IMG/VR virus record: IMGVR_UViG_3300045257_000172
Location: 1-52,473 of that record
Length of the DNA stretch: 52,473 nucleotides
Origin: a virus
Reading direction: 5' to 3' (one strand)
Position numbers and translations under genes: made by a program. The stretch's first letter is position 1, and the number at the start of each line of letters is the position of its first letter. The notes beneath the pieces are model-generated. The model was not told the DNA's origin, did not search any database, and was given only the letters and a program-made list of their open reading frames with translations. Of the stretch, positions 5,493 through 45,219 are shown in pieces.

Positions 5493-5839
5493 ACCTGGCC
5501 TTTTTTGATTCTGCTATCTCTGGTGATACTGGCACTAAATGTGCCGATGTTGTGATTTCTCCCACTGATGGGGATATACCGCTGAACGTGTCACTGTCCA
5601 CACCCCAGACCGGGGGTCACATCTTTTACGTAGTTGGTAACGCCAGTCAGATGCCGCAACACGTTGGCGACAACGCCACTTCACCTACCGTTCGGATCGG
5701 GAGTAATAACGGCAGTGTGTTTATCGGGTCTGCCGGACCAGCGGGTAAGTACATCGCCGCAGTCTGTTATCAGTCCGGGTTTCTAGATTCCAATATCACC
5801 CACGGAGGACCGTACACACCGCCACCGGGGCCGCTATGA
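5489..5839 (+). CDS. Small virion protein with chitobiase-C-like beta domain
   Basis: The protein has 116 residues. After a short lead-in it carries a compact beta domain (about 20-100) with spaced hydrophobics and the segment GHIFYVVGNASQMPQH. This resembles the C-terminal beta-sandwich of chitobiase/beta-hexosaminidase that often decorates secreted or virion proteins. It ends in a Pro-rich tail (GPYTPPPGPL). It sits between a fibre gene and the nozzle-like gene with 4-base overlaps on both sides, so it is probably a small accessory virion protein. The fold assignment is tentative. Confidence 0.6.
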   Translation: MNLAFFDSAISGDTGTKCADVVISPTDGDIPLNVSLSTPQTGGHIFYVVGNASQMPQHVGDNATSPTVRIGSNNGSVFIGSAGPAGKYIAAVCYQSGFLDSNITHGGPYTPPPGPL

Positions 5840-7602: not shown

Positions 7603-8420
7603 GTGCCCCAATAATTGATACTGTCTTAACCAACGTCGATCCTAATCAGGCTAACCCGCAGGATTTACAGGGGCTGGTGGATATTCTTAACCCGCTGTTG
7701 GTTAGCACCATTGAAGGGACATTTGTCCCGTACGTCTTAAGTAGTTCAACTCCAGCAGTTTCGGACCAGGACAAAAGTTGGCTTCGGATAGACGGGGCTG
7801 GTAGGCCCCTGGGCGTCTATCTGTTCTACAACGGCAACTGGAGACGGTTCTACAACGGTAATCCTACCGAGCTAAGGATGTTCAGCGGTGACCCAGCTCT
7901 TTACTTCGATGGTACGGGATTAGGGTTAATCGTCCCCACCAACGGTGATCTCAACACCTGGGACGGTTGGGCAATTTGCAACGGGCAGAACGGCACTTAC
8001 AACTGGAGCAACCTCTTCCCTGTAGTGGGGCAGGTGGACAACGTAACCGTGACTGGCTACTCCGCTACCGCCAAGGATCATTTGAACTCGGATGCCGTGA
8101 TTGCGGCTTGGCAAACCAATGTGACCGGTACGGCCTATGCCACCGGTGGTGCCGCTAATTACTCTATCCAGAATACTGACCTCCCTAGTATGAAAGTGTT
8201 CCTGCACGGGCTAGCAGATTTTAACACCAACAACACCCCCGCGGGAGAGTTCTTACCTCTTGTAACAAGGAAAGGGGATGGTGGGAATAAAACCACCGAC
8301 AGCCCCCAGGCTAGTTTTGGTGCTGATCCTACCGGTACACCGGCTATTCCCCAGACTCTTGTTCCTACAGCCCCGAATTTCAAGGCAGTGTGTTTAACCC
8401 AGTGGGTAGGTTATGCCTGA
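7599..8420 (+). CDS. Collar-type tail fibre protein
   Basis: The protein has 273 residues. Residues 1-60 (NVDPNQANPQDLQGLVDILN) look like an attachment segment, 60-105 contain a small beta domain (YLFYNGNWRRFYNG), and from about 110 the sequence GDLNTWDGWAICNGQNGTYNW resembles a phage tail-collar/microcystin-dependent protein domain. In those, a W-x-x-C-x-G-Q turn precedes a beta cap. The C-terminus ends with FKAVCLTQWVGYA, a typical collar-domain closing strand. It is probably a short fibre or fibre tip. It overlaps the previous gene by 4 bases and the next by 8. Confidence 0.65.
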   Translation: MSAPIIDTVLTNVDPNQANPQDLQGLVDILNPLLVSTIEGTFVPYVLSSSTPAVSDQDKSWLRIDGAGRPLGVYLFYNGNWRRFYNGNPTELRMFSGDPALYFDGTGLGLIVPTNGDLNTWDGWAICNGQNGTYNWSNLFPVVGQVDNVTVTGYSATAKDHLNSDAVIAAWQTNVTGTAYATGGAANYSIQNTDLPSMKVFLHGLADFNTNNTPAGEFLPLVTRKGDGGNKTTDSPQASFGADPTGTPAIPQTLVPTAPNFKAVCLTQWVGYA

Positions 8421-8655
8421 TACCGATTTAAGCCCTATTTCGTCGCAACTGGCCCGAATAGCTTCAGCTTTAGGTCCAAGTGGGGCAGTAACGATAGCTA
8501 ATCTCCCAGCCACCCCGACTACCGGACAAAGAGGTACGGTAACGGATGGTGATTCCGGGCTTGCTTGGGGTGCTAATGTGGTAAACAGCGGGTCGGGAGC
8601 AACAACTTACGGAGTGTTTTGGAACGGCGCGCAGTGGTCTGTAGAGGCAAAATGA
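8413..8655 (+). CDS. Small fibre/adhesin accessory protein
   Basis: This 80-residue protein has an N-terminal helix (LSPISSQLARIASAL) followed by TIANLPATPTTGQRGTVTDG and a beta end VFWNGAQWSVEAK. The pattern L-P-x-x-P-x-x-G-Q-R-x-x-V-T-D-G then W-N-G-x-x-W is widespread in small phage tail-fibre and virion-surface proteins. Its position between the collar-type fibre and the adaptor-like gene fits. Start ATG lies 8 bases inside the previous gene; its TGA overlaps the next ATG. Confidence 0.6.
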   Translation: MPDTDLSPISSQLARIASALGPSGAVTIANLPATPTTGQRGTVTDGDSGLAWGANVVNSGSGATTYGVFWNGAQWSVEAK

Positions 8656-8861
8656 GAAACTCCAACTACGTCTACTGCGAGAACAACAGGTGCATGAAGA
8701 AGTTCCTATTAACGTCCCCGGGTGACCTGATGGAGATGCGGGTGATAGACCTGCACGGCAACGAGGTAGCCCCACGCCGGGACGGATTTATCTGCCCCAC
8801 CTGTCAGAAACTATATGCTGAAGTGTCCCACGAAGAGGAGGAAGGAAGCGAATGGCTGTAG
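8652..8861 (+). CDS. Zinc-ribbon protein, 69 aa
   Basis: I place the start at the ATG at 8652, which overlaps the preceding stop (ATGA), rather than at an upstream codon at 8619. The 69-residue product has C-x4-C in CENNRCMKKF and C-x2-C in ICPTCQKLY, a four-cysteine zinc ribbon, and ends in an acidic tail (EVSHEEEEGSEWL). A small structural or regulatory zinc protein is likely. The GGAGGAAGGAAG stretch near its end is also the ribosome-binding site for the next gene. Confidence 0.6.
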   Translation: MRNSNYVYCENNRCMKKFLLTSPGDLMEMRVIDLHGNEVAPRRDGFICPTCQKLYAEVSHEEEEGSEWL

Positions 8862-10222
8862 GCGGACTTACATTTTTAGCGGCTAAACCTATCCTCTGCA
8901 CGGTGGTAGAGAACGGTGTGGACCAGAATGACCCCAGGGTGATGGGTAGAACCAACGAAGCTATCCACGCCATCCTCGACGAAATCCTGACCGTGAATGG
9001 GTGCATGACGGTGGACATCCAGGCTGAAGGCCCCAATGGGGATGAACTTTTTCTCCCGAAGGAACTGGAAAACGCCATCGAAGCCGAAGTAATCGGGGCA
9101 ACTGTGAACGGGAGCAGTGATGTAACGAGGGGGTTCTATGACATCGTGACCCAGTTCAGTTACGCCGATCCCTCAGCCGCAGGTGATAACCCGCTGGTAG
9201 ACCTATTTCTTCAACCTGACCCCAATGATGCTTCAATCCTGCGGAGGAAGTACAGGTATCCTGGGTTAAGCCCCAATGCCACGGTAAGGGTGACCGGAGC
9301 CAAACGCTACGTCCCTATCACCCAGGATGGAGATTATTTGATTGTTCAAAACCTCCTGGCCATAAAAGACATGATTCAGTCTATCTGGCGGAAGGAGAAC
9401 AACGACCCGCAGGGGAGTGAGATCCTGCACAAAGCCTGCATGGAACGGTTACAGGCTGAGGTGAAGAAACATCAGCTTGATCCTCGAAACGCCATGCGCC
9501 GGAAGGCTGAGTACTACAAGGACCTTGAAACCTTCCCCGAGCATACCTTTGGCTGGATGCGAGCTAATCTTGCCCTGGAAGTACCATCCCTGATGAACCG
9601 AGGGAAACTGGATATATCCTTTGTCCTTAACATGGCCGAGAAACGGCTGATGCAACGGGGGCTGTGGAAAGATTGTATCCAAGAGTACACCATGCAGGTG
9701 GTGGGCGGGGAAGTGGCTTTCCCGAAGGAAGTTCAATCGGTTCTGGCGGTAGACATGAACGGGTGCCCGATACCGATTAGGAGCGTGTTTTTTGAGTACC
9801 TGGAGAACGGCCCCGGGATGTCAACTCTTGACCTGACCCAGATCCCTTCCCCGTGGATACGAGGGGCTGGGCACGCGATGTTGGTAGACCAGGGGGACGA
9901 AGATTTCCAGGGAGGCAGACGAAGGGTGTACAAGCTAGTTGCACCCACGGCCCAGAATCAGACGATAACTGCGGCATGCAAACTCAGGTGGGTAGAACGT
10001 AAACCCACGGACCAACTTGCAATCAAGAACTTCGAAGCCCTCAGAAACATGATTCAATGTATCATGAACGAGGAGAACGAGAAATACCAGGAAGCACAGG
10101 CTGCTGAGGCTGCTGCGTTCAGAGTGCTGGAACAAGAACAACAGGAGTACCTGGATGGGATACGCCATGTGGTGCATATCCAGACAGCGGGCTTTGGACT
10201 AGGGAACGTGGGTACAATTTGA
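8852..10222 (+). CDS. Head-tail adaptor/tail tubular A-type protein
   Basis: This 456-residue protein has mixed alpha/beta sequence with no enzyme motif. Its C-terminal region has a long helical stretch (KNFEALRNMIQCIMNEENEK, then an Ala/Glu/Gln-rich coiled segment) of the type found in podovirus gp11/tail tubular A and other head-tail connector proteins. It is paired with the nozzle-type gene upstream and internal virion genes downstream, the order expected for T7-like tails. A strong GGAGGAAGGAAG precedes the ATG, inside the end of the zinc-ribbon gene. Assignment is by context and composition. Confidence 0.55.
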   Translation: MAVGGLTFLAAKPILCTVVENGVDQNDPRVMGRTNEAIHAILDEILTVNGCMTVDIQAEGPNGDELFLPKELENAIEAEVIGATVNGSSDVTRGFYDIVTQFSYADPSAAGDNPLVDLFLQPDPNDASILRRKYRYPGLSPNATVRVTGAKRYVPITQDGDYLIVQNLLAIKDMIQSIWRKENNDPQGSEILHKACMERLQAEVKKHQLDPRNAMRRKAEYYKDLETFPEHTFGWMRANLALEVPSLMNRGKLDISFVLNMAEKRLMQRGLWKDCIQEYTMQVVGGEVAFPKEVQSVLAVDMNGCPIPIRSVFFEYLENGPGMSTLDLTQIPSPWIRGAGHAMLVDQGDEDFQGGRRRVYKLVAPTAQNQTITAACKLRWVERKPTDQLAIKNFEALRNMIQCIMNEENEKYQEAQAAEAAAFRVLEQEQQEYLDGIRHVVHIQTAGFGLGNVGTI

Positions 10223-10237
10223 ATGAGGTGATTTGAT

Positions 10238-11035
10238 ATGAGTTTCACGCCTTTAACTGATGTTTTTGGAGAAAAACCCACCGTCCCACCGTGGAAGAAC
10301 ATCAGTTTAGCCCAGCAGCAGCTCGCGTCCCTGCAAGGGAATATCGCGGCAATGCCCGATATAACCAAGTTGGGGGATTTGTACCAGAGCTATCTGACCG
10401 ACCAGATGAACACCCTGCTCCCCGGGTACTCAGACTTGCTAAAGAGTGGAGCTGCAAGCGCACAGCAGGAGTTGGATTTGAGTAAATCGCTTCTGAGCGG
10501 ACAGATACCACAGGACGTCCAGGACCTAGTGCAGCGTAATTCGGCTTATGGGGCTATGCAGGGTGGGTTTGCTGGGAGCCAGATGAGCGGGAATTTGACC
10601 GCTAGGAACTTGGGGTTAACCAGCCTTGACCTGATGGGGCAAGGGGCAAATATGGCAGCCCAGGGTGGCAATGCGGCCCAGCGTTGGGCGGGTCTGGCCA
10701 GTAACCAGGTAATGAACCCTGGAGCGTTCTATACTAACCCCCAGCAGATGTTCCAGGACACCATGCAGAACCAGACGATGAAATGGAACAGGGATATGAT
10801 GGCGGCTAATGTGGCCGCAGCCCCAGACCCGGCAGCCAAGGGGATTAGTGATACCATTATTAACCTGATTGGAGCTTACTTAGGGAAAGGTGGCGGGGGT
10901 GGGGGTACTGCTGCCAATAGCTATGCACCTGCTACCGCAAGTGGGAGCATGAACTATAACTTTGGCGGGGACCAGCAAGACCCGTACAACTACGCTAATT
11001 ACGGTAGCCTCGGGCTAGGAGCAGGAGGTGCATAA
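10238..11035 (+). CDS. Internal virion (DNA-ejection) protein
   Basis: This 265-residue protein follows a 15-base gap with a GAGGTGAT ribosome-binding site. It is rich in Gln, Ala, Met, Asn and Gly. It has an N-terminal helical part (ISLAQQQLASLQGNIAAMPD), a Gly/Ala/Met-rich middle (AYGAMQGGFAGSQMSGN), a possible amphipathic segment with DTIINLIGAYLG, then poly-Gly and a Tyr/Asn/Gly tail. This composition is typical of ejection proteins such as T7 gp14 or P22 gp7. It heads a tight run of four virion genes. Confidence 0.55.
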   Translation: MSFTPLTDVFGEKPTVPPWKNISLAQQQLASLQGNIAAMPDITKLGDLYQSYLTDQMNTLLPGYSDLLKSGAASAQQELDLSKSLLSGQIPQDVQDLVQRNSAYGAMQGGFAGSQMSGNLTARNLGLTSLDLMGQGANMAAQGGNAAQRWAGLASNQVMNPGAFYTNPQQMFQDTMQNQTMKWNRDMMAANVAAAPDPAAKGISDTIINLIGAYLGKGGGGGGTAANSYAPATASGSMNYNFGGDQQDPYNYANYGSLGLGAGGA

Positions 11036-11949
11036 TGCCTGAGCTAGTTAAACCTGAGTTACCAGAGTTTTATAGCCCTGGGAGAGTGTTCCTGTCAGCC
11101 TTTGCTACCTACGCTGCCATCAATGCCAGAAGGACACAATTAGAGAACCAGCTTCAACATCTCCAGTTGCAGAACGAGGCTATGCAGTACCGGCAACAGC
11201 AGAACGAAGCTAGCTTTGGGTTGCGGCAACAGGCCATGGAAAATCAGTATAACCTTGGAATACAAAAGATTGGTATTGATAGGGATAGACTAGCAAATCA
11301 GACCGAGGCTACGATCCTACAACGTAGACAAGATGCGATAACCGATGGGCGAGTAACCGAGTTCCAGAGCAAGGCTGCCCAAATCTCGGATAAGATTGGT
11401 ACCCAAGGTTTTGATACTTCATGGAATATTTTGAAAAGCGAGTACTCAGACATCCTGGGTGAACCAGGGGCAGCATCGACCAAAGTATCAATCGACAGTA
11501 GGCATTCACGAGCAGTGGGCGAGTCGGTTAAAGCCAAGGTTAACTTACAAAAGGACTACAAAGATTCAGTAGGTGCGTTGGGGGTAAGTGACCCGAATAT
11601 GAAACCGGGGATGGTGGACTACTTCTTTAACAACCCGAACATCTGGTACACCAGGGGCGGTAAGGCAGCGATTGATTACGATTCCTCAGGGCGACCAGTG
11701 CCGGAAGGGGCCAAAACCAAGGCAGGATCATTTACCATTGGGAAGAATGATTATGATACGATGTTGGCCAAGCGCAAAGCAGCTTTCCCTTCAAGTCCAT
11801 CTGATACCCCTGCAATCCAAGCGTTACCCAACGGCATGAAATCGGGGACTACCGCAACATCGCAATACAAGGTTGGGGGGCAATACGGGAATTTGATTTA
11901 CAAAGGTGGGGACGTAAACGACCAAAACAGTTGGCAACCGGCTCAATGA
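11035..11949 (+). CDS. Coiled-coil internal virion protein
   Basis: The 304-residue product has a long coiled coil at about 25-110, rich in Gln, Leu, Glu and Arg (LENQLQHLQLQNEAMQYRQQ). A mixed region follows with IWYTRGGKAAIDYD, and the protein ends with a short beta-like tail (YKVGGQYGNLIYKGGD). Its stop is one base before the next ATG, and its start overlaps the previous stop by one base (TAATG). Position and composition fit a second ejection-type protein; there is no catalytic motif. Confidence 0.55.
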   Translation: MPELVKPELPEFYSPGRVFLSAFATYAAINARRTQLENQLQHLQLQNEAMQYRQQQNEASFGLRQQAMENQYNLGIQKIGIDRDRLANQTEATILQRRQDAITDGRVTEFQSKAAQISDKIGTQGFDTSWNILKSEYSDILGEPGAASTKVSIDSRHSRAVGESVKAKVNLQKDYKDSVGALGVSDPNMKPGMVDYFFNNPNIWYTRGGKAAIDYDSSGRPVPEGAKTKAGSFTIGKNDYDTMLAKRKAAFPSSPSDTPAIQALPNGMKSGTTATSQYKVGGQYGNLIYKGGDVNDQNSWQPAQ

Positions 11950-11950
11950 A

Positions 11951-13795
11951 ATGGCTGACTTTGTTCCGCCTCCGCCTGAAAGTTATGTGGATACCGGGTT
12001 CACCCCGCCACCGTTAGATAGCTTCGTCCCGCCTCATCCCAGCACCTACGTCCCATCTCCTACCCCCGAGACAGACAAAGCGGTAGCGGACACGCTCGCA
12101 GTTCCCGAAGGATCACCTGAGTACCAAGCCCGAATGCGGCACGACTTGGGGCAGGATGTTGTGTTGCCACCAGACATTGCTAACCGGCCTGATGTGGTGC
12201 CTGCCAGCACCCAGCAAGCGTACAGACAGGGTGGGATTCTAGGAGCAGCGTTTTACCCCCGTAAAGCCACTTCCCTGCTTGAAACAGCCTCGGGGCGGCA
12301 ACTGCCTGAAGCTAAATCAGCACCGGAACAGATTGCCAAGGGGCTAGCAACGTCCCCCTTAGCACTTGCAGATTTTATGACTACCCCAGAAGGGGTTGGA
12401 TACATCATGGCCGGGGCAACTGGACCTGCCATCCGTGCAGTCATTGCCGGTAAGTTCGGACTTGAAGGAGCCACTGGTACAATTAAGGCACTTCGGAGCG
12501 GGGATTACCACGGAGCAACTCAGTCTGCTTTGGTAACCTTGGGGTCAGCTTTAGGGCTAAAACACGATTTAGCCGCTAAACCCTCTGTAACCGCTCCTGA
12601 GGGCGAACCCGCTACCCTGACACCCCCGGAGCAACAAACGCAGCCACAGGCCCCTGTACAGCTCCCCAAGGGTGTTACAATAGGGGAACCTCAACGCCGA
12701 GGGCATCAGTTTGGCTTAAGTGCGGTTGATGAATCAGGGGAGATGGTTGGGAGACTTAGCTGGACTGAACAACAGGGGCGTCCCAAGGTAGAAATGGTCG
12801 ATGTCAAAACTGATATGCAACGGCAGGGAATAGGGTTAGCCCTGCTCAACAAACTTCAGGAACAGTACCCAGGAATAGAAATTATCCATGACCCGGTAAC
12901 GGCCAAGGGCAAGGGGTTGGTTGAGAAGTTCAAGACACAACAAGCAGGAGGTGATATTAATGCCCAGCAGCCAAGTGATGCACAAGTTCAAGCAGGGACA
13001 ACTCCACTCGGGGAGCAAGCACGGCCCCAGGGTGAAATCCCGGGCACAGGCAGTAGCGATAATGTTATCGGAGAAGCGGCAGGCACACAGCAAATCGTGG
13101 ATGAGCCAGCACCGCAAGAGGATGTAGCTACCGAACCTGCCGGAGTAAGTGGTGCAGAGACGCCACCTCCGGCAGAACCCCCTGTCAGTGGCGTATCGGC
13201 TGGAGCTTTTGAGCGGACCTACGGAGCGGGTGAGATACCTACTGGGCAGAGCATGTCCCCGGAAGATATATTCGCCCAAGGCAAAGCTGATCTTGCAGCC
13301 GGGGTTGACCCCTATTCATTCGCTGTCAGAGCAAGGACCGGGGATGTGTCCCCGCGGGAACTTGGGCAACTAGCCGCAGAGCACGACCGGCTAGTGACTG
13401 AAGCCGCAGGACGGGAAGGTACCCCAGGGTACGAAGAAGCCTACCAGCGAGCCAAAGATTTCGCCCAGAACATGCTTAAACCTGCCGGAACCAAATGGCA
13501 TCAGGTGGGCATGGGGTTACAGATTGAGGCTCCGGTTGATTTCTCTAACCTGACTGGGTTCAGAGCAGCACTAGAAAAACGTATGGGGCGAGACATGACC
13601 CCAGAGGAAGCACCAGCATTCCAGAAAGTGGCTAATGATGTGGCTAAGGCTAAAGGTGAAGCTCAGGCTGCTGGTCGAGAAGCAGCTAATGGAGTTCAGA
13701 AACGCTTTGCCAGGGTGAAGGATATAACTTTTGAGGATGCAGCAAAACAAATCCACGATGCAATCACGGAGGCAGCTAAACCCTGTAACCTATAA
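11951..13795 (+). CDS. Large internal virion protein with embedded GNAT domain
   Basis: The protein has 614 residues. Residues 1-40 are Pro-rich with repeated FVPP/FTPP motifs. About 90-205 is Ala/Gly-rich and partly hydrophobic, compatible with a membrane-active segment. Residues 245-330 look like a GNAT N-acetyltransferase: beta strands GHQFGLSAVDESGEMVGRLS and VEMVDVKTDM lead into the acetyl-CoA loop RQGIGLALLNKL (291-302), which matches the R/Q-x-x-G-x-G/A motif. About 430-614 is helical (ERTYGAGEIPTGQSMSPED and onward), like polyvalent phage proteins. Its TAA overlaps the next ATG by one base. GNAT-bearing polyvalent proteins that are injected with the genome are known in phages; that use here is inference. 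Confidence 0.6.
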   Translation: MADFVPPPPESYVDTGFTPPPLDSFVPPHPSTYVPSPTPETDKAVADTLAVPEGSPEYQARMRHDLGQDVVLPPDIANRPDVVPASTQQAYRQGGILGAAFYPRKATSLLETASGRQLPEAKSAPEQIAKGLATSPLALADFMTTPEGVGYIMAGATGPAIRAVIAGKFGLEGATGTIKALRSGDYHGATQSALVTLGSALGLKHDLAAKPSVTAPEGEPATLTPPEQQTQPQAPVQLPKGVTIGEPQRRGHQFGLSAVDESGEMVGRLSWTEQQGRPKVEMVDVKTDMQRQGIGLALLNKLQEQYPGIEIIHDPVTAKGKGLVEKFKTQQAGGDINAQQPSDAQVQAGTTPLGEQARPQGEIPGTGSSDNVIGEAAGTQQIVDEPAPQEDVATEPAGVSGAETPPPAEPPVSGVSAGAFERTYGAGEIPTGQSMSPEDIFAQGKADLAAGVDPYSFAVRARTGDVSPRELGQLAAEHDRLVTEAAGREGTPGYEEAYQRAKDFAQNMLKPAGTKWHQVGMGLQIEAPVDFSNLTGFRAALEKRMGRDMTPEEAPAFQKVANDVAKAKGEAQAAGREAANGVQKRFARVKDITFEDAAKQIHDAITEAAKPCNL

Positions 13796-15360
13796 TGGCA
13801 GCACCCTGCGGACACGAATACGAATCGGAAGCTCGTGATAAGATTGAGATTAACCCGATGGTAGCTAAAGCCTTCTGGAACGAAGCCAAGGCTCACTTTG
13901 ATACCGGGAAGGATTTCCAGGAGACAGTAAAAACCATGGCTGAGAAGAGCGGGCTACAGGAAGCTACCGTAGCCCGAGTACTCACCGCCGATAAACGACT
14001 CAAAGCTCTCACCAACGACATGTGGCTAAAGCGGGCAAAGTACGGTGATATCACCCGTGCAGCGCATCAGTTGGTAGATCAGGCTGATACCCCTAAATGG
14101 GCACAGAACGCCCGGGGGCTATGGGATGCCAGCCGAAGAATTGCCACCCTTGGGCATGGTGGGGTGTTCCCGTTTACCCACATGCGTAACTTGCCCCTAC
14201 GAGGGGTTGAGGAAGCTAAGATATTCGCGGAGACAGTTAAACGTGCCTATAGCTATGCTACACCTAAGGCAGGGAGAGCACGCTGGGCCGAAGACATGGC
14301 AACGATGCAGTTGGACCCTGAGTACGCCAATGCTCGTAGATTGGGGTTGGACATTGAACCTGGGTCTGAACCTGTAGGGATACTTTCAAGTGGAGCCAGG
14401 GGATGGGGGCGTAGGGGGTTTGATGCTCTTAAACCCTCCCGACTAGAACTATTCAAGCAGTGGTCCAAGGAGTTGCCTCAGGACATGCGGGACGAACAGA
14501 GCGGAAGGATGCTAGCACGGGAGATAAATTACGCTACCGGGTCAATCGGTAAAACCGGGGCAGGGTTTGCCCGGGTGACTAGCCCAGTGATGTTTGCGCC
14601 CAAACTATGGTTTGCTAAACGAATGGAGGCTTTCCAACCTCTGCGTTATCTGGCTAACGCTGGGAGACTGACAGCCGGGGAACGGATGGTAGCCAATAAA
14701 GCACTCAAAAGCTGGGCTAAGATTGCGGTAGCTACAGGTGGGGTGCTGGCTGCCAATGATGCTTTTAACAAGTACGTGTTGAAGAACGATAAACGAGTCA
14801 ACTTCACGGATTTCACTAAGCCTGGTACCCTGTGGAGGATGAACCTTGGGGGCATGATCGTTCCACTATCTCCCATGGCAGAAGTGATCCGCACCCCAGT
14901 AGCCTTCGTTGGAGCACTGATGGCCACAAAACGTGATCTGCGGGGTGAGGCACCGCTTACCAGTGCCGGGAGATTAGTACTGAAGGATTTCTTGAACGCT
15001 CTCCACCCGTCCATAACCGCTGGGGTAGAACTTATCTCGGGGCGTGAAGCATACGGTACCCCGGGGCATCTGCGGAGGCTGCCGTTCCCAGGGGTAGCAC
15101 AGATGGTACGGGGAGAGGAACCCGAGAAAGAGCCACCTTTAACACTTGGGGAATACGCAGCGGAGAAGGGACCAATCCCGCTGGCTGCTGGTACCCGGGA
15201 GTTCGTTCAGGCATTGCAGGATGAGGGGTTAAGTGCCACCGATGCCGATACGTGGGTAAAATCTCTACTCCATAGTGCTCTATCGGGCGGGGCTGGAATC
15301 CACACCTTTCAAGATTCATCTAAACCCAGCGGTATAAAACGTGTCCGACCTATCCACTAA
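13795..15360 (+). CDS. Large helical internal virion protein
   Basis: This 521-residue, mostly helical, basic protein includes FAPKLWFAKRMEAFQPLRYL and a moderately hydrophobic stretch KSWAKIAVATGGVLAANDAF, then MIVPLSPMAEVIRTPVAFVG. Such features occur in the C-terminal half of very large phage ejection/polyvalent proteins. It starts exactly at the stop of the 614-residue gene (TAATG), so the pair may be the two halves of what is one polypeptide in relatives. No frameshift signal is evident. The C-terminal 20 bases are shared with the ATP-grasp gene in another frame. Confidence 0.55.
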   Translation: MAAPCGHEYESEARDKIEINPMVAKAFWNEAKAHFDTGKDFQETVKTMAEKSGLQEATVARVLTADKRLKALTNDMWLKRAKYGDITRAAHQLVDQADTPKWAQNARGLWDASRRIATLGHGGVFPFTHMRNLPLRGVEEAKIFAETVKRAYSYATPKAGRARWAEDMATMQLDPEYANARRLGLDIEPGSEPVGILSSGARGWGRRGFDALKPSRLELFKQWSKELPQDMRDEQSGRMLAREINYATGSIGKTGAGFARVTSPVMFAPKLWFAKRMEAFQPLRYLANAGRLTAGERMVANKALKSWAKIAVATGGVLAANDAFNKYVLKNDKRVNFTDFTKPGTLWRMNLGGMIVPLSPMAEVIRTPVAFVGALMATKRDLRGEAPLTSAGRLVLKDFLNALHPSITAGVELISGREAYGTPGHLRRLPFPGVAQMVRGEEPEKEPPLTLGEYAAEKGPIPLAAGTREFVQALQDEGLSATDADTWVKSLLHSALSGGAGIHTFQDSSKPSGIKRVRPIH

Positions 15361-23658: not shown

Positions 23659-23852
23659 GGTTCGGGCTCATCCTCTGCCTCCCGTAGCAGTCGGTTATGC
23701 TGAACCAATGTTTCCATGAAATCGGCCTTAACTGCTTCTAGTGCCCCAACAACCTCAAATGCTGTCAGTTTATCGCTTTCGTCCAGATAACGCCTCACAA
23801 CGCTATGGAGTTCGTGGTAGATTAAATCAGCTTCGTTAAGGTCCGAGTTCAT
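23655..23852 (-). CDS. Small helical protein, 65 aa
   Basis: Unrecognised 65-residue acidic helical protein (EADLIYHELHSVVRRYLDES then ALEAVKADFMETLVQH). ATGA overlaps on both sides place it firmly in the operon. Confidence 0.5.
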   Translation of the reverse strand: MNSDLNEADLIYHELHSVVRRYLDESDKLTAFEVVGALEAVKADFMETLVQHNRLLREAEDEPEP

Positions 23853-24358
23853 TCTTTCCCCTGCTCATAAAGAGCGGCACGAACGATGTCCCGGACGTCC
23901 CATGACCACAGAGCCTTGCCGGATGTCGGGTCTTTGATGGATTTAGTAGCTAATTCGTCAAGTTTCTCCAACGCCTCTCGCATCTCCTCCAAGTCGGGCT
24001 GCTGCTCGGCAACTAGACGTTTCAGTTTTACGTTCTCGATTTTGCACCGATGAGCGTCATCTTTAAGCTCGCGGTAGTAAGATCGGACAGACTCCACAGA
24101 CATAAACTCTGATCCTCCCGGCGTCATCTCTTGAGCGAGGGAACGCCACTTAATCATTTCCGGTTCGTCCTCCTGCTCGGGGACGCGGCGGTTCCAAAGG
24201 TCGTAAATAATGTCTGCAATCGAACCCCATGGCGTAAAATGTCCATTCTCTACAGCCTTAAGATGGGATTGGATTGTTTTCTCACAATCTTTAGCTACGC
24301 GATGGGTGAGCCTATCACCATCACCCGCACAGGAATCGTTAGGGTTACTCATAGCCAT
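23849..24358 (-). CDS. Hypothetical coiled-coil protein, 169 aa
   Basis: This 169-residue protein has KTIQSHLKAVENGHFTPWGS near the N-terminus and a coiled coil at about 95-140 (HRCKIENVKLKRLVAEQQPD, LEEMREALEKLDELA). It ends with WSWDVRDIVRAALYEQGKE. Segments with PEMIKWRSLAQEM and VEQQ-type coiled coils are common in phage early proteins of unknown function. It overlaps the next gene by 4 bases. Confidence 0.5.
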   Translation of the reverse strand: MAMSNPNDSCAGDGDRLTHRVAKDCEKTIQSHLKAVENGHFTPWGSIADIIYDLWNRRVPEQEDEPEMIKWRSLAQEMTPGGSEFMSVESVRSYYRELKDDAHRCKIENVKLKRLVAEQQPDLEEMREALEKLDELATKSIKDPTSGKALWSWDVRDIVRAALYEQGKE

Positions 24359-24558
24359 GATATCCGATAACGCCCGAGTTCTCCGTGATACTTGGCGTGT
24401 TGCGTGCGCTGCGGCGCGTTAATTTCTACACGTATTCCCTGCCATCGCTTCCACCAGCCCCTGAAGTAGATCATTGTGTAACGGACATGAACGGTTAGCC
24501 AACAACCCTTGCTCTGGCTGTGAAGAATATTGTGTTCGATTTTGATTAGTTCTCTCAT
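24349..24558 (-). CDS. Small basic aromatic-rich protein, 69 aa
   Basis: Unrecognised 69-residue protein, MRELIKIEHNILHSQ followed by a beta/aromatic stretch GCWLTVHVRYTMIYFRGWWK. I prefer this frame over a competing one (24419-24628) because its ATG forms an ATGA overlap with the 25-codon reading frame upstream. It overlaps the next gene by 10 bases. Confidence 0.4.
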   Translation of the reverse strand: MRELIKIEHNILHSQSKGCWLTVHVRYTMIYFRGWWKRWQGIRVEINAPQRTQHAKYHGELGRYRISWL

Positions 24559-24632
24559 GGCGTGTTGCCTTTAGGCACAAACTTCTCCTGCACACGGACT
24601 TGTTTTTGGGTCGTGGAAGCAACCGCATTCAT
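24555..24632 (-). CDS. Micro-ORF, 25 aa
   Basis: The frame MNAVASTTQKQVRVQEKF ends in VPKGNTP and a TGA that overlaps the ATG of the next gene (ATGA). The last residues K-x-V-P-K-G-N-T are repeated at the end of the 68-residue HTH protein encoded at 25826-26032, with a 20-base near-identical DNA block. That similarity, together with the coupling, is the evidence; the product is too short to judge otherwise. A competing frame (24571-24672, TTG start) would encode a small Cys-rich peptide. Confidence 0.3.
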   Translation of the reverse strand: MNAVASTTQKQVRVQEKFVPKGNTP

Positions 24633-24656: not shown

Positions 24657-25433
24657 TTATTCCTGTTGGCAAAAATCATTCACTGCATTCATTGCCTTGT
24701 CGATTGCTTCACGGAGAGAGTCGCCCCTTGCTTCTACTTCATTCTCGATTGAGAAAGTAATCGCGTCTTTAGTGTAACCCATGTCCTCCGCATTACTGAT
24801 GAATAATCGCGTGAAACGTCTAGGCTGCTTCGCGTATCCTTCCAGCCAATCTAGACGCTGCGTGTCCCTATCACCGAAGCCAGCGGGGCGAGCGGGCAAG
24901 GATTCAACCTCGCTGGGTGGCGTTTCGACTAGGCTTAATTGGGCTTCCGGATCGCCCGTTGACGTAGTATCCACCGCTCCGCTCAAATTTGCGGGCTGCT
25001 GCTCGGCAAGTTTCCGGTGTAGTCTAGCGATAATTTCAGACTGTTCTTGAAGTGCTCGTTGCTGACGATCCTCCCTTGTGGTGGAATCTGACTCAACTTC
25101 ATTGGGTTGCTGTAATAGCCGGCTGTAACCTTTCGCCCATCCTGAGACTGGGCTGACAATTTGGCATATCGGACACTTTATGGGAACCTCCTGAGATTGC
25201 TCGCTGGGCTGGTGCTCGAGGACGCGGCGGTTATGAATCCATTCAACTCCAGCCCAAAATCCAATCCATCTTTGGTGATGACGGGTTCCGTGAGTGCTTG
25301 AGGGACATTGGCCCATTGCCCATTTAGCAAAGTATTCTTTGGCTTCGGCTTTGAGCCTATCACCCGCACACAACTCTGGTTCACACTTCTCGTTAGGTTT
25401 TTGGTTAGTTGTCACGGCGCTAGTTGCCTCCAT
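24657..25433 (-). CDS. Phage early hypothetical protein with zinc knuckle, 258 aa
   Basis: I start at the ATG at 25433; a TTG lies five codons upstream. Near the N-terminus is RLKAEAKEYFAKWAMGQ and, further on, a C-P-I-C knuckle in IKCPICQIVS. A coiled-coil stretch follows (EDRQQRALQEQSEIIARLHR). The C-terminal part RDTQRLDWLEGYAKQ to RGDSLREAIDKAMN is a module often seen in phage early proteins of unknown role. It follows the zinc-ribbon gene by 26 bases. Confidence 0.5.
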   Translation of the reverse strand: MEATSAVTTNQKPNEKCEPELCAGDRLKAEAKEYFAKWAMGQCPSSTHGTRHHQRWIGFWAGVEWIHNRRVLEHQPSEQSQEVPIKCPICQIVSPVSGWAKGYSRLLQQPNEVESDSTTREDRQQRALQEQSEIIARLHRKLAEQQPANLSGAVDTTSTGDPEAQLSLVETPPSEVESLPARPAGFGDRDTQRLDWLEGYAKQPRRFTRLFISNAEDMGYTKDAITFSIENEVEARGDSLREAIDKAMNAVNDFCQQE

Positions 25434-25459
25434 TTGCTTAGTTACCAACGTTTACGTCT

Positions 25460-25825: not shown

Positions 25826-26032
25826 TTAATCTTGATGTGTTAGCGTGTTGCCTTTAGGCACAGACTTGTTAGGGCTTTCCGAACGGCGGAAATTGAAGAG
25901 CGAATCCACACTGATTCTGTGGCGCCTAGCCACCGATGCCAACGTAACGCGGTGGCCGCTGCCGGGCTTTAGGTCTTGATATTCAACGGCTGCGGTTGCC
26001 ACGGTGACCGGATCGTAGATTTGTCGGCCCAT
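25826..26032 (-). CDS. Small HTH DNA-binding protein, 68 aa
   Basis: In this 68-residue protein, residues 29-50 (TLASVARRHRISVDSLFNFR) read as a helix-turn-helix like those of small phage or transposon-type regulators (A-R-R-x-x-I-S-x-x-x-L-x-x-x-R). The C-terminus carries the KSVPKGNTL segment also present at 24555-24632. It begins 4 bases after the 28-residue gene. A regulator role is inferred. Confidence 0.5.
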   Translation of the reverse strand: MGRQIYDPVTVATAAVEYQDLKPGSGHRVTLASVARRHRISVDSLFNFRRSESPNKSVPKGNTLTHQD

Positions 26033-26036
26033 ATTT

Positions 26037-26123
26037 TTATTTAGGTAAGGCGTCGCCTTTGGCTTCAGTCATTGCTCGCAATACTTCCACACGGCCCTTG
26101 AGATTATGTTCGTTCAAAGGCAT
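26037..26123 (-). CDS. Micro-protein, 28 aa
   Basis: MPLNEHNLKGRVEVLRAMTE followed by AKGDALPK, ending in TAA 4 bases before the HTH gene start. Its ATG lies 20 bases inside the preceding membrane micro-protein gene. It is soluble and helical in composition. Read directly from the sequence; support is the dense gene spacing. Confidence 0.4.
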   Translation of the reverse strand: MPLNEHNLKGRVEVLRAMTEAKGDALPK

Positions 26124-26217
26124 AAGCATTTAGGTCCGAGACAAAGGTTATCCAGCACAGCGGGAGCGTAATTAGAAACACCGAAAACCAGAACAGCCAA
26201 ATTAGCCTCGATTTCAT
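26104..26217 (-). CDS. Micro membrane protein, 37 aa
   Basis: The ATG at 26217 forms an ATGA overlap with the previous gene. The 37-residue product starts MKSRLIWLFWFSVFLITLPL and continues CWITFVSDLNAYAFERT: one strongly hydrophobic, Trp/Phe-rich transmembrane segment with a basic N-terminus. Third in a run of tiny membrane proteins. Function unknown; superinfection exclusion, antirestriction or holin regulation are possible roles. Confidence 0.55.
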   Translation of the reverse strand: MKSRLIWLFWFSVFLITLPLCWITFVSDLNAYAFERT

Positions 26218-26369
26218 TCCGATTGTTGTTTAGGTTTACTCCCATCCTTGGGTGGGTTCTGTGCAACACACCAACAAAACCCGAGGAAGGTTGCCCATTC
26301 AAGCAGTGCCTCACCGAAAGTTGTCGAAGGGACCAGCGTAAAGGCCAATAAAAGGATCAACAGTAACAT
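26214..26369 (-). CDS. Small membrane protein, 51 aa
   Basis: I take the ATG at 26369 as the start, rather than one at 26441, because the upstream part overlaps another micro-protein. The product opens MLLLILLLAFTLVPSTTFGE and has a second hydrophobic stretch ALLEWATFLGFCWCVA before a polar Lys/Gln tail. Two membrane segments or a signal peptide plus one are possible. Ends in an ATGA overlap with the 37-residue gene. Confidence 0.5.
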   Translation of the reverse strand: MLLLILLLAFTLVPSTTFGEALLEWATFLGFCWCVAQNPPKDGSKPKQQSE

Positions 26370-26377
26370 TTTGGGGT

Positions 26378-26455
26378 TCAAAATCCCTTTCTCATCGAAA
26401 CGACAAATAGAATGCTGTAAGCGAGGTAGAGTGATAGCCAAATTTCCCAGTTCAT
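26378..26455 (-). CDS. Micro membrane protein, 25 aa
   Basis: Starting at the ATG that shares a base with the stop of the zinc-ribbon gene (TAATG), the frame reads MNWEIWLSLYLAYSILFVVS then MRKGF and TGA. It is almost entirely one transmembrane helix with a positively charged end. Followed 8 bases later by the 51-residue membrane protein. Confidence 0.5.
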   Translation of the reverse strand: MNWEIWLSLYLAYSILFVVSMRKGF

Positions 26456-26811
26456 TATTTCTTTTTCCACCTTGGAACTCTGTCTGGTCCTCTGGTTATC
26501 ACTTCTACTCGCTCGTCGGCTTGGAGTTCAGCTGAGAGAATTGGACTGCAAGGGCCGCAATGCGCAGGTTCAGCTTCACCTTGAGCGTTACAGACTGCAC
26601 GACAATGACCACGAACGCCGTCAACCTCGCTCTCCTCTAGCGTTTCACCACACGACTCACAACGCCATTGTCTGTTTGGCTGTACCTGCTCAGCACGTTT
26701 AGCTCGCCGAACTTGTTCGCTGAACTCTATGCGAAGAGCTTCCTCCTCCGGCGAGCGTTCGTCCTCAACCTTTTTTGGTGGCTGTGCCTGCTCAGAATCA
26801 GATTTTTTCAT
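26455..26811 (-). CDS. Zinc-ribbon protein, 118 aa
   Basis: The 118-residue product has an acidic/basic helical N-terminus, then RQWRCESCGETLEESEVDG (C-x2-C), HCRAVCNAQ and HCGPCSP, giving three Cys pairs suited to bind zinc. The C-terminus is basic (RVPRWKKK). ATG overlaps the previous stop by 4 bases. Role unknown. Confidence 0.5.
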   Translation of the reverse strand: MKKSDSEQAQPPKKVEDERSPEEEALRIEFSEQVRRAKRAEQVQPNRQWRCESCGETLEESEVDGVRGHCRAVCNAQGEAEPAHCGPCSPILSAELQADERVEVITRGPDRVPRWKKK

Positions 26812-27041: not shown

Positions 27042-27317
27042 TCATTTGTATAGGATTAGGCCCATGGAACGCGCTTTGTTTTTGTGGGTTTCAACCCAGT
27101 CATGGCAAGGACGGCACGAAGCTTTGAACCATTCTTCGTCGCACATTAATTCTCCGGCTTGGCCTTTCATGTGGTGAATGTCAACAGTTTCATTAAAGCA
27201 GTCATCGAACATTTCACAGTAGGGGTGGGATCGAATGTAGATGGGTTTGAGTATCCTGAAGGCGCGATCCTGTTGAGCCTTCTTTTTGCTCATCTTTTTG
27301 AGTGGTGAACGCTTCAT
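27042..27317 (-). CDS. HNH endonuclease-like protein
   Basis: This 91-residue protein opens with a basic segment (MKRSPLKKMSKKKAQQDRAF). C34 and C40 precede VDIHHMKGQ with the paired His (48-49), and SCRPCHDWVE supplies C68, C71 and H72. This is the layout of a compact HNH/McrA-type nuclease with a structural zinc. Phage proteins like this act in recombination, packaging or as stand-alone nucleases. It overlaps the previous gene by 4 bases. Confidence 0.6.
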   Translation of the reverse strand: MKRSPLKKMSKKKAQQDRAFRILKPIYIRSHPYCEMFDDCFNETVDIHHMKGQAGELMCDEEWFKASCRPCHDWVETHKNKARSMGLILYK

Positions 27318-27532
27318 GGGGTATAGGTTTCGCTCAGGATGCAGGTTGATACTTTAACTATTCGGTGGGACCAGTCCTGTTTACCCTTGATTGACTTTTT
27401 GAATACCGTCTTGGCTGCTTCATGACTTGGGTATTTAGGTGTGTAGGCATCCCAGTACGGTAGTCCGGTAATAGAGTTCTCAGCCGGAATCTCGAACTGA
27501 ATTTGCCAGTAGGTTTCAGTTGTTCGGGACAT
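27314..27532 (-). CDS. Hypothetical protein, 72 aa
   Basis: Unrecognised 72-residue alpha/beta protein: YWQIQFEIPAENSITGLPYW, then a helix SHEAAKTVFKKSIKGKQDW and a closing strand HRIVKVSTCILS. It overlaps the nuclease gene upstream by 17 bases and the HNH gene downstream by 4. Confidence 0.5.
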   Translation of the reverse strand: MSRTTETYWQIQFEIPAENSITGLPYWDAYTPKYPSHEAAKTVFKKSIKGKQDWSHRIVKVSTCILSETYTP

Positions 27533-28280
27533 AGGAGTTTTTGAGTTGCCAGAATGTGAGCAATGCCTGGAACATCGCCCATGCCTTCTGCAAATCTTCT
27601 GGGGTGTATTCCAGTATCAGGCATTTGCGGTCATCGGTCCCGATAAAGACATTCAAGCACCTTGCGTCGGGCATGCTGAGCCCCCGGGAGTACGCCGCTA
27701 GCTGCATTAAATTCTCATCGTACGCCTTTACCTTGGGGTCTATCACTTTCTTGCTCTTAAAGTCCAGAATTACCTCGGGATCTTTGCATACGTAGTCAGT
27801 CTTCCCCCCGTACCCAAGCGGGGAAGCGAAGGAGTGTTCGGCCACCCCTTGGGTTAGGTCGATGCCGAGGGCGTTCAGTTGCGCTTCAATCTCCATGATG
27901 TGGGGCGCCCATAGCAGGTTGGGTTGACCTTGGGTGTATTGTTCGATTGCCCCGTGCAGTTCGGTTCCTGATGTCCGGGCAAGTTCAGCGTGTTCCTTGG
28001 CCCATTTCTGGCACTCAATGAAATGTTCCTCGTCCGTCATCCCTTTGGGCCTGGGGGTGGTGAAAGTAGCATCGTACATCTGCCGGTCGAAGTACTGTCT
28101 TAAACCCGGTTTATCGGCTACGGAGGTAATGAGGGTAACAGATGGAACGGCTTTGACTACCCGGGCATCCCTGATTGTTACATTACGCTCGTTGCCATTT
28201 TTCCCGATTAAAGTGTAGAACGGAGAACCATCCTGTAGATACCAGTGGCCGCTTTGGGCGGAGAGTGTTGCTGTGCTCAA
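27516..28280 (-). CDS. PD-(D/E)XK exonuclease (RecB/Cas4-like)
   Basis: This 254-residue protein bears the motifs of PD-(D/E)XK exonucleases in order: H109 in SGTELHGAIEQ, E149 in AEHSFASPLGYGGKTDY with D162, VILDFKSKK with D173-x-K175, and QLAAYSRG (motif with Q193 and Y197). These are typical of phage exonucleases and RecB-like nucleases that process DNA ends for recombination or degrade host DNA. It is coupled to the OB-fold protein (4-base overlap), a pairing that fits a recombination or replication module. Confidence 0.78.
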   Translation of the reverse strand: MSTATLSAQSGHWYLQDGSPFYTLIGKNGNERNVTIRDARVVKAVPSVTLITSVADKPGLRQYFDRQMYDATFTTPRPKGMTDEEHFIECQKWAKEHAELARTSGTELHGAIEQYTQGQPNLLWAPHIMEIEAQLNALGIDLTQGVAEHSFASPLGYGGKTDYVCKDPEVILDFKSKKVIDPKVKAYDENLMQLAAYSRGLSMPDARCLNVFIGTDDRKCLILEYTPEDLQKAWAMFQALLTFWQLKNSYVPNN

Positions 28281-29138: not shown

Positions 29139-29348
29139 TTAGGGTTTGGTTATTGCCATGATGAATTGGTCGATCTTGGTTTGGTTCCATGATCTGTGGC
29201 CTAGTTCTAGGTCGGACAGATATGCAGCGGAGACTTTCAAACGGCGAGCCACTTCCCGCAGGCTTAAGTGTTTCTGTTGGCGTTTGTGCCGCATGTAGGC
29301 CCCGGTAGCTTCTTGATCCACAACTGTAATGTCCTTGGTAATTAGCAT
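29139..29348 (-). CDS. XRE (Cro/CI-type) transcriptional regulator
   Basis: The 69-residue product is a minimal lambda-repressor-like HTH: YMRHKRQQKHLSLREVARRL followed by KVSAAYLSDLELGHRSWNQT. The LSLREVARRLKVSAAYLSDLE stretch is the helix-turn-helix and recognition helix with the conserved S-x-x-Y-L-S-x-x-E. It probably regulates early gene expression. No partner antirepressor or integrase is seen, so it does not by itself imply lysogeny. It starts 7 bases inside the lipoprotein-like gene. Confidence 0.75.
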   Translation of the reverse strand: MLITKDITVVDQEATGAYMRHKRQQKHLSLREVARRLKVSAAYLSDLELGHRSWNQTKIDQFIMAITKP

Positions 29349-29554
29349 CTGTCATACGACATTGGCATACGTCCGCTTACTGTCAACACAAATAAAAAGA
29401 TCATATTGAAAACTTTGGGTGTCGGTGTTGGAGTTGGGCGCGGAGGTGGTTCGATAATCACGGTCTGGCTGAGGGCGATACAGGCCGCTACGGTCAGGAG
29501 AGCGGCGATTAGGATTAGTTTGGTTAAGCAGGCGTCGCGGTAGGCGATATTCAT
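29342..29554 (-). CDS. Lipoprotein or membrane-anchored small protein, 70 aa
   Basis: The 70-residue frame has a hydrophobic N-terminal segment KLILIAALLTVAACIALSQT with a lipobox-like VAAC, then a Pro/Thr stretch PPPRPTPTPTPK and a second short hydrophobic part. This is compatible with a lipoprotein or single-pass protein. A competing overlapping frame (29352-29582) lacks these features. The ATG overlaps a 15-codon frame by ATGA. Confidence 0.4.
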   Translation of the reverse strand: MNIAYRDACLTKLILIAALLTVAACIALSQTVIIEPPPRPTPTPTPKVFNMIFLFVLTVSGRMPMSYDRC

Positions 29555-33089: not shown

Positions 33090-33553
33090 AGCAAGTAGAC
33101 CGTGAAGCAGTAAAGACATTGGCTATAGCGGTCGGAGTCAGGGAAGCAGCAAGACGCTTAGGGCTCAACGAAGACAGAGTCTGCCAATGGTCCAAACGCG
33201 GCCAGTGGTTTAAGAACCCACCTAAACCCAAAACCATAGCAGTACAGCAGGGTATTGTTAGCACTGTCAGCACTGCCTCGGACGCCCTGCGTTCTACTCT
33301 CACCGAACGCAGCAACGCCACGAAGCTGGGGCTGAGCAAAGCAGCAGCCAAAGCCGCAGAACATCTAGCTGAGAGTGAGCCAGTTACTATTCTAAAACAT
33401 TCCCGAGCGATGAAGGACGTGGCCAGCACGGCGAGCGTGGTACACGGGTGGGAAGCAGGGAGCAGGGACACCGGGCCGTTCAATCCTGGAGCGATCCAGA
33501 TCCTCTCCCAGCGCACGTACCTTAACCTGGGCAACGATCAGCCCGAGGCGTAA
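33086..33553 (+). CDS. HTH DNA-binding protein, candidate small terminase
   Basis: This 155-residue protein has a helix-turn-helix at about 14-40 (AVGVREAARRLGLNEDRVCQ with WSKRG following), then an Ala-rich helical middle (KAAAKAAEHLAESEPVTIL) and a short C-terminal tail. The HTH followed by helical oligomerisation sequence, placed close upstream of the large terminase with one intergenic region between, is what a small terminase subunit looks like. A transcription regulator is the alternative. Confidence 0.5.
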   Translation: MKQVDREAVKTLAIAVGVREAARRLGLNEDRVCQWSKRGQWFKNPPKPKTIAVQQGIVSTVSTASDALRSTLTERSNATKLGLSKAAAKAAEHLAESEPVTILKHSRAMKDVASTASVVHGWEAGSRDTGPFNPGAIQILSQRTYLNLGNDQPEA

Positions 33554-33666
33554 CCACGTCTCCTGACCATCCACCAGAATAGCCCTTGCACGCTCTGTAC
33601 GCCTCGCTACGCCCTGTCTGACGTGGCACCCTTAGCTTGGGTAGCGGAGAGTAATTCTTTTGCCCT

Positions 33667-33697
33667 GGGGAGGGTGGCAGTGGTGGGTGGGGTAGGG
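33667..33697 (+). repeat. G-run cluster upstream of the terminase genes
   Basis: Five runs of three or four G (33667-70, 33672-74, 33685-87, 33689-92, 33695-97) fall within 31 bases, with loops of 1, 10, 1 and 2. Four-strand G-quadruplex formation is possible but one loop is long. It lies in the 259-base region between the small-terminase candidate and the next gene. Confidence 0.55.
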
Positions 33698-33731
33698 CCC
33701 GCTGGCAATAGGGCGATGACCCGGCGAAGCC

Positions 33732-33762
33732 CTCTCCGAATTTATTCCCAAAAATTCGAGAG
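33732..33762 (+). promoter_or_regulatory. Strong hairpin in pre-terminase region
   Basis: CTCTCCGAATTT, loop ATTCCCAA, AAATTCGAGAG forms an 11-bp stem with one bulged base. No T-tract follows. It directly abuts the TTAG repeat array, so it may end transcription from the upstream gene or form part of a packaging or operator site. Confidence 0.5.
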
Positions 33763-43645: not shown

Positions 43646-43762
43646 ATGCGCGAAGTTGAACAGGAAATCATCGGGATACTAATGGCGATTCGTGACGGGG
43701 TGGATGTGAAAAACAACTGGAGCCGTCTAATCAACCTTTGGTATCAGAGGGGGTCAGCATGA
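43646..43762 (+). CDS. Micro-protein, 38 aa
   Basis: Product MREVEQEIIGILMAIRDG then VDVKNNWSRLINLWYQRGSA, wholly helical. Its TGA overlaps the ATG of the fibre-like gene (ATGA), which supports coding. Similar-looking tiny helical proteins precede fibre genes in other phages, but no name applies. Confidence 0.45.
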   Translation: MREVEQEIIGILMAIRDGVDVKNNWSRLINLWYQRGSA

Positions 43763-45219
43763 AGTGGAGCGACCTTACGATTATTGGTCTGCTGACGCAG
43801 ATCAGGGATGGTAGCGGCGGAGGAGGTGGTGGAGCACCAACTGGTCCAGCCGGAGGCGATCTAGGGGGCACGTATCCAAACCCTACCGTCCTCAGTCTAT
43901 CCGATGTCACAACCGGTACGCTTCTAGGCGCTAACGGCGGCACCGGTATCGCCAACACCGGCAAGACGTTGACCCTGGGCGGCAGCTACACCATCAACGG
44001 GACGAGCGGGATAACTCTTGATCTTGGGACTACGGGCGGGTCTGTCTTGTATTCTGGTGGTGCGCTAGGCACACCGACATCCGGTGTCGCCACTAACTTG
44101 ACCGGAACTGCCCCGGGCTTAACTGCTGGAAACGTTACAACCAATGCCAATCTAGCAGGACCAATTACGTCAAGCGGCAACGTAACCTCGATAGCTTCTC
44201 AAACTGGTACCGGGACTAAGTTTGTTGTTGATACGGGTCCTACGCTTACTGAGGCAACCAAAAGCACTACTGCAACATGGGGAACTGGCAATGCCAATCT
44301 TTACGGCTTAATCCTAAACCGTCCAACTGGTTCTTCCATGGATTACGCCCATGGAATTGAGCTTCGATATAATGCCACCGAACTTTGGGACTTTGGTCTA
44401 TCGGCTGAACATCAAGATTTTTACATATTCGATCATGCGGCGAGTAGCGGTGACGTATTCCGTATTTCCCCGGGTGGGGAGACAGCTATCGGAAAAGGTA
44501 TAGGGCAACCGCTCGGGCAATTAGCTAGATTGGTGGTTACGCGGGCATCTGGCGATACTTACGCGATCAAATCGCAGGGAACTTTTGCAGTCACTAACAC
44601 TGCGGCTAACGCGATAATTGCCACGTTCGACGAAGCCACCATGGGCGTTGGGATAGGCGTTACAAGTCCCGCTTCGCAGCTTCATGTTAAAAGCACAACG
44701 GGAAGCGTGAATGGATTGGTTGAAACTACGGCTGCGGGTGCGGCAACCTGGAACACTAAGCGACCAGCCAATACTGGGTATAATGGTCTTGGGCTGTTTA
44801 CCGGAGCAACTCAGGGCTGGACCATAGGACAGCGAGCAGGTGATAGCGACGTTCATATTTACGATGAGGTAAATTCTAAAGATCAGTTCAAAATTGTTCA
44901 GAATACTGGAGCGGCAACATTACTTGGCACTCTCTCTGTTGGCGGAACAGTAACCACCACGGCTATAGGGGGAACTTTAGCTGTAAAGTCCGGCACTAAT
45001 GCCAAAGCCGGAACATTCACGCTTTCCAGCGGCACAGCTACGGTCAGTAACACGAGCGTCACCGCCAACAGCGTAGTTTGTTGCACGGTTAAAACTTCTT
45101 CTGGCACACTTGGAACCGGTTCACCCGAGATTGTCATTACTGCTAGCACAGGGTTTACCGCTACCGGGATTGCGACCGATAATTCAACTTACAACTTCGT
45201 TATCTTGGAAGTGAATTGA
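43759..45219 (+). CDS. Fibre-like virion protein, 486 aa
   Basis: Start at the ATGA overlap at 43759 with AGAGGGGG upstream. The 486 residues begin MKWSDLTIIGLLTQIRDGSG, then a Gly-rich linker and PAGGDLGGTYPNPTVLSLSD, a phrase typical of phage fibre and virion-surface proteins. The remainder is Gly/Thr/Ala-rich beta sequence with TSPASQLHVKSTTGSVNG, which resembles a trimeric beta-structured shaft. The end, TGIATDNSTYNFVILEVN, looks like a C-terminal trimerisation strand. It is probably a head or tail fibre. Confidence 0.65.
   Translation: MKWSDLTIIGLLTQIRDGSGGGGGGAPTGPAGGDLGGTYPNPTVLSLSDVTTGTLLGANGGTGIANTGKTLTLGGSYTINGTSGITLDLGTTGGSVLYSGGALGTPTSGVATNLTGTAPGLTAGNVTTNANLAGPITSSGNVTSIASQTGTGTKFVVDTGPTLTEATKSTTATWGTGNANLYGLILNRPTGSSMDYAHGIELRYNATELWDFGLSAEHQDFYIFDHAASSGDVFRISPGGETAIGKGIGQPLGQLARLVVTRASGDTYAIKSQGTFAVTNTAANAIIATFDEATMGVGIGVTSPASQLHVKSTTGSVNGLVETTAAGAATWNTKRPANTGYNGLGLFTGATQGWTIGQRAGDSDVHIYDEVNSKDQFKIVQNTGAATLLGTLSVGGTVTTTAIGGTLAVKSGTNAKAGTFTLSSGTATVSNTSVTANSVVCCTVKTSSGTLGTGSPEIVITASTGFTATGIATDNSTYNFVILEVN

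Follow-up and report, generated by a model that had tools for sequence, protein, structure and literature searches.

Superinfection exclusion in several phages depends on small membrane proteins, with Imm of T4 and gp15 of HK97 as examples. SieA of P22 is another phage membrane protein with this role (PMC10883804). More broadly, phage proteins of <100 aa act on host or phage processes (reviewed in PMC11323111). Short repeats in front of start codons have been described as start-associated sequences (SAS/ESAS) in cluster K mycobacteriophages (PMC3203893), and T4-type phages carry mobile regulatory cassettes known as PeSLs (Arbiol 2010; Comeau 2014; both as cited in PMC4503421). Here we compare with these systems a run of three micro-ORFs (the trio), each of which is predicted from its hydropathy to encode an inner-membrane protein of the phage.

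The window, i.e. the whole stretch of DNA analysed, is a virus record of 52,473 bases. Its two ends form a direct repeat of 184 bp (1-184 = 52290-52473, 99.5 per cent identity with one mismatch), so the record probably represents a phage genome that is complete and was assembled as a circle. Most of the large genes are on the plus strand. As most large genes, including the one at 5836-15360 (+), had no match among PHROGs, Pfam, or phage databases, the phage belongs to a lineage far from those described. A protein of 1415 aa encoded at 241-4488 (+) contains several domains of the PKD and Ig-like types (Pfam E down to 6e-24) and in part is 45 per cent identical to one protein of the relative introduced below. 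The protein at 43738-45219 (+) has a C-terminal K1-lyase_C domain (Pfam E = 2e-11) and is likely a tail-spike or capsule depolymerase that has a chaperone domain at its C-terminus. On the minus strand, the exonuclease gene (27516-28280) and the HNH gene (27042-27317) lie in a compact unit together with genes for a RusA-like protein and methyltransferases. From these DNA-metabolism neighbours we infer that the trio is early.

A preliminary description of this DNA had reported consecutive frames of 25, 51, and 37 codons, chained by TAATG, an 8-base gap, and ATGA. When the coordinates were re-read on the minus strand, all three frames were exactly where they had been placed and every junction was correct (Table 1), with the gap between micro-ORFs 1 and 2 at 26377-26370. 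An alternative TTG start at 26381 would extend micro-ORF 2 by four residues to 55 aa (MNPKMLLLI...) and would give it a TTGA overlap with the previous stop. The genes said to bracket the trio were indeed there, but their names were less secure: both the zinc-ribbon and the HTH label are sub-threshold family matches (for the HTH-like ORF, HTH_Tnp_1 at E = 0.08, below the cut-off), and the structure model of the 118-aa upstream protein is of low confidence (pLDDT 64) and does not settle the zinc-ribbon label. The fourth small ORF, of 30 codons, had been omitted.

Table 1. Coordinates of the trio, its neighbours, and the repeated sequences at the edges of the exchanged block (window positions).
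Feature	Position	Strand	Description
Upstream gene	26455-26811	-	118 aa; middle part rich in Cys and by eye zinc-ribbon-like; the block includes only its 3' end
Exchanged cassette	25843-26524		682 bp; 99.27 per cent identical (677/682) to relative 9850-10531
Upstream edge repeat	26505-26524	-	CCAAGCCGACGAGCGAGTAG; in frame near the 3' end of the upstream gene
SD-like site of micro-ORF 1	26467-26473	-	AAGGTGG; within the tail of the upstream gene; -7.0 kcal/mol with anti-SD
Micro-ORF 1	26378-26455	-	25 aa (MNWEIWLSLYLAYSILFVVSMRKGF); a single membrane helix predicted; start overlaps the stop of the upstream gene (TAATG)
Micro-ORF 2	26214-26369	-	51 aa; one or two predicted membrane helices, basic tail
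Micro-ORF 3	26104-26217	-	37 aa; a single membrane helix predicted; start overlaps the end of micro-ORF 2 (ATGA)
Fourth small ORF	26037-26129	-	30 aa; soluble, not hydrophobic; 26-base overlap with micro-ORF 3
HTH-like ORF	25826-26032	-	68 aa; covered by the exchanged block except for its last 17 bases
Downstream edge repeat	25844-25862	-	TGTGCCTAAAGGCAACACG; in the tail of the HTH-like ORF
Second downstream-edge copy	24555-24584	-	30 bp identical to the downstream edge of the relative; immediately upstream of an ATGA start

The membrane-spanning stretch claimed for each frame is borne out by prediction, with peak Kyte-Doolittle means (17 residues) of 1.95, 2.25, and 2.25 for the 25-, 51-, and 37-mer. 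A single-sequence AlphaFold2 model of the 51-mer contains helices at residues 2-12 and 15-37 (mean pLDDT 75). By charge (positive-inside rule), the predicted orientation is N-out/C-in for p25 and N-in/C-out for p37, and p51 would form a hairpin whose basic tail is cytoplasmic. SD-like sites precede micro-ORFs 1 and 2 (-7.0 and -5.1 kcal/mol, respectively). No SD was found before the start of micro-ORF 3, which is also the case for several larger genes of the same phage. Translation would begin from the SD-like site for micro-ORF 1, from the SD-like site or a TTGA/ATG restart for micro-ORF 2, and by ATGA re-initiation for micro-ORF 3.

Proteins of the cassette and of its upstream neighbours served as queries against IMG/VR, as did two DNA patterns taken from the edges. 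The only record with any part of the cassette was IMGVR_UViG_3300047509_000125 (66 kb; hereafter the relative), whose copy comes from a metagenome assembly. The block common to both phages contains the trio, the 30-codon ORF, the 68-aa weak HTH-like ORF, and the tail of the upstream gene. Its five substitutions are scattered, and similarity ends abruptly on both sides with no alignment beyond. Shared DNA near the block is about 67-91 per cent identical between the window and the relative, and the range for the neighbouring genes is 67-87 per cent. Protein identity is 69 per cent for the exonuclease and 91 per cent for the HNH protein, and mostly 23-45 per cent for the plus-strand proteins. At HNH-like divergence, five or fewer differences would have a probability of ~5e-34. 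This jump to 99.27 per cent identity amid diverged surroundings indicates that the block was exchanged recently, as one unit, between two distantly related phages.

Other segments are also common to the two records. A stretch of 349 bp (33407-33755) is 86 per cent identical to positions 247-595 of the relative and overlaps an ORF with a weak HTH_23 match. In addition, the tail MREALEKLDELATKSIKDPTSGKALWSWDVRDI... (23849-24009 (-)) ends a 169-aa gene (23849-24358), and in the relative (L001:9177-9533) the MREALEKLDELATKSIKDPTSGKALWSWDVRDI tail is fused to the N-terminal part of the homologue of the gene at 24657-25448 (-); tail modules are thus shuffled between genes.

Beyond this one exchanged copy, the trio has no relatives that our sequence searches could detect. 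An alignment of the exonuclease led to ~79 more distant loci, none of which contains the micro-proteins. Pfam and PHROGs held no micro-protein matches of note, and nothing above noise emerged when named phages, plasmids, and genome contigs were searched for diverged homologues. At the level of annotation, the surroundings of the exonuclease in Stenotrophomonas phage S72 and two Manatee Spring phages list no related gene.

Because the trio was recently shared by phages that otherwise differ, it is a candidate for a beneficial accessory function. The preliminary description had proposed superinfection exclusion, host takeover, or defence evasion. These roles found no direct support: homologues and family matches are absent, and PHROG, Pfam, and phage searches gave no similarity to a known superinfection-exclusion protein. 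Host takeover or exclusion is nevertheless plausible. The reading we prefer, and hold tentatively, is that the trio consists of real accessory genes for inner-membrane micro-proteins that are early, coupled, exchanged as a cassette, and alter a function of the host envelope. They would be transcribed within the minus-strand replication/early unit; the predicted products would most likely insert into the host inner membrane early in infection and may there change envelope function to the benefit of the phage. The step to an envelope function draws on size, place, and exchange; superinfection exclusion is its single likeliest version, and even so is somewhat unlikely.

Nothing in our data singles out envelope modification over other membrane roles. 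The micro-proteins could instead be membrane-active toxic or counter-defence peptides, either similar to type I toxins or acting to trigger or evade a host defence. Size and hydrophobicity are compatible with such peptides, and exchanged accessory cassettes often carry toxin or counter-defence genes. Neither an antisense RNA nor a family match was found, however, and we consider this explanation unlikely.

A further possibility is that the frames are untranslated; the hydrophobic ORFs would then be incidental, and the cassette would owe its persistence to hitch-hiking or to its HTH-like ORF. The chain itself speaks against this. To count towards a chain, ATG ORFs had to be 20-60 codons long, reach a mean hydropathy of 1.7 or more over 17 residues, and follow one another at a spacing of -8 to +15. 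The window has one chain of three. None arose in 5000 dinucleotide shuffles of the 2-kb region, where a single shuffle reached two, or in 400 whole-genome shuffles, where nine reached two, and none was present on the 158 strands of the 79 distant-relative loci (874 kb), though these thresholds were set after the sequences had been seen and the exact odds are to be discounted. Even with that discount the chain is clearly unusual and beyond chance. Untranslated frames would also leave 350 bp of a compact operon non-coding, and no structured RNA was detected over the trio region (fold z = 0.08; no Rfam match).

Other results are compatible with untranslated frames. Recent exchange alone would account for the identity between the two copies, micro-ORF 3 starts without an SD, and codon usage gave no positive coding signal for the trio; this last test is without power because even secure genes carry just ~0.05 bits per codon of synonymous bias. 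Conservation at the codon level, which had been suggested as a check, leans towards coding but carries hardly any weight. Over the 348 frame bases of the trio, the window and the relative differ by one substitution, a synonymous third-position change in micro-ORF 2, and micro-ORFs 1 and 3 show zero differences. The 30-codon ORF likewise has one difference (third-position, synonymous); in the HTH-like ORF there are three second-position differences, and each changes the amino acid. As a positive control, differences by codon position were 8/4/27 for HNH and 74/56/159 for the exonuclease, which demonstrates that the method works given sufficient divergence. For the trio it is almost powerless, since the two phages exchanged the 682-bp block only recently. 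Overall, we find it quite unlikely that the frames are untranslated. The description of three consecutive, easily missed membrane micro-genes held up in that the chain is not due to chance, the first two members have SD-like sites, the starts are coupled, and all are intact in a second phage, where the other proteins mostly show 23-91 per cent identity.

The trio could also comprise small membrane genes for lysis or lysis timing (holin, antiholin, or pinholin-like). The predicted topologies, hairpin-like for p51 and single-span for p25 and p37, resemble those of holins, and no holin was recognized elsewhere among the proteins scanned. On the same strand, 3 kb upstream, a 70-aa membrane protein at 29342-29554 (-) gives a very weak hit to Rz-like spanins (PHROG 16495, E = 0.022); a PPPRPTPTPTPK stretch of this protein is kept in the relative (L001:4984-5289). 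Usual holins are longer than the trio proteins, however, and the trio is surrounded by the exonuclease, HNH, and small genes of regulatory type, and there is no endolysin in the vicinity. A role in lysis is therefore improbable.

Both edges of the exchanged block coincide with short sequences that are repeated elsewhere in these two phages, and in IMG/VR CCAAGCCGACGAGCGAGTAG and TGTGCCTAAAGGCAACACG were found, besides the window, in the relative only. CCAAGCCGACGAGCGAGTAG occurs exactly at positions 9766, 9850, and 65975 of the relative, with a one-mismatch copy at 65891. Further copies of TGTGCCTAAAGGCAACACG are at 24561-24579 in the window and at 10512 in the relative. On the upstream side, the gene bodies differ between the two phages and end in a common tail, QADERVEVITRGPDRVPRWKKK, that contains the SD-like site of micro-ORF 1. 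Both at 24555-24584 in the window and at 10512 in the relative, the downstream edge runs into CC-ATGA, where the next gene starts, and AAAGG lies at SD distance; the copy at 25844 in the window is not placed before an ATGA with AAAGG. Scans for promoters and terminators gave no more matches than in shuffles.

The end of the relative's contig (65892-66018) is an exact 127-bp repeat of 9767-9893 with a different gene body upstream, and L015 (65879-66018) and L012 (9754-9893) of the relative have different gene bodies and the same tail. This repeat suggests that the relative contains the edge, or even the whole cassette, a second time. We take an exact repeat of 127 bases to be the trace of a de Bruijn assembler (k = 127) at an unresolved branch, from which it follows that the cassette edge probably stands behind two different genes in the relative's sample. 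Such a branch at the upstream edge would fit a shared block produced by chimeric assembly and not by biological exchange. We regard this as highly improbable: the five substitutions show the copies not to be the same molecule, further, shorter segments nearby are shared at 84-91 per cent identity, both records keep the genes in frame and at the same syntenic position, and the window closes on itself through its 184-bp terminal repeat.

Returning to the preferred reading of an exchanged accessory cassette, the edges probably provided short homology for swapping. The trio, the 30-codon ORF, and the small HTH-like ORF were swapped as a 682-bp cassette, probably via the short repeated edge sequences, and coupling would survive the swap because each edge carries a gene tail and the ribosome site of the next gene. 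The occurrence of such tail-plus-ribosome-site edges around an exchanged, coupled cassette in two phages is suggestive, and points to a route by which small genes could be swapped inside a polycistronic unit with translational coupling intact. In a bolder version, the block would be a portable operon cassette with gene-tail-plus-ribosome-site couplers, and the three micro-proteins would form one membrane complex of a new kind. We regard this version as rather doubtful; if true, the portable cassette could sit between unrelated genes with translational coupling kept.

Proteins of 25-51 aa are routinely missing from phage annotation, yet here they are the most recent acquisition common to two very different phages. 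The components are of kinds already known, namely small phage proteins, mosaic exchange, repeated ribosome-site sequences, and shuffling expression cassettes. Like T4 Imm, HK97 gp15, and P22 SieA, the trio is phage-encoded, predicted to be in the inner membrane, accessory, and variable between related phages; unlike them, its members are shorter (25-51 aa), coupled, and without sequence similarity to these proteins. With the reviewed small phage proteins (PMC11323111) the trio shares its size class, frequent omission from annotation, and little or no homology between members, but those proteins are mostly soluble regulators whereas the trio is predicted to be membrane-bound. SAS/ESAS (PMC3203893) are short conserved repeats with a Shine-Dalgarno core before the starts of small genes, an arrangement that the downstream cassette edge shows at two of its three places; the edges differ in having just two or three copies, another sequence, and a position in gene tails at the borders of an exchanged block. 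Finally, both PeSLs (as cited in PMC4503421) and the edges are short repeated intergenic expression signals that offer possible homology for accessory-gene swaps; PeSLs consist of promoter and terminator stem-loops, whereas the edges described here are gene tails with ribosome sites.
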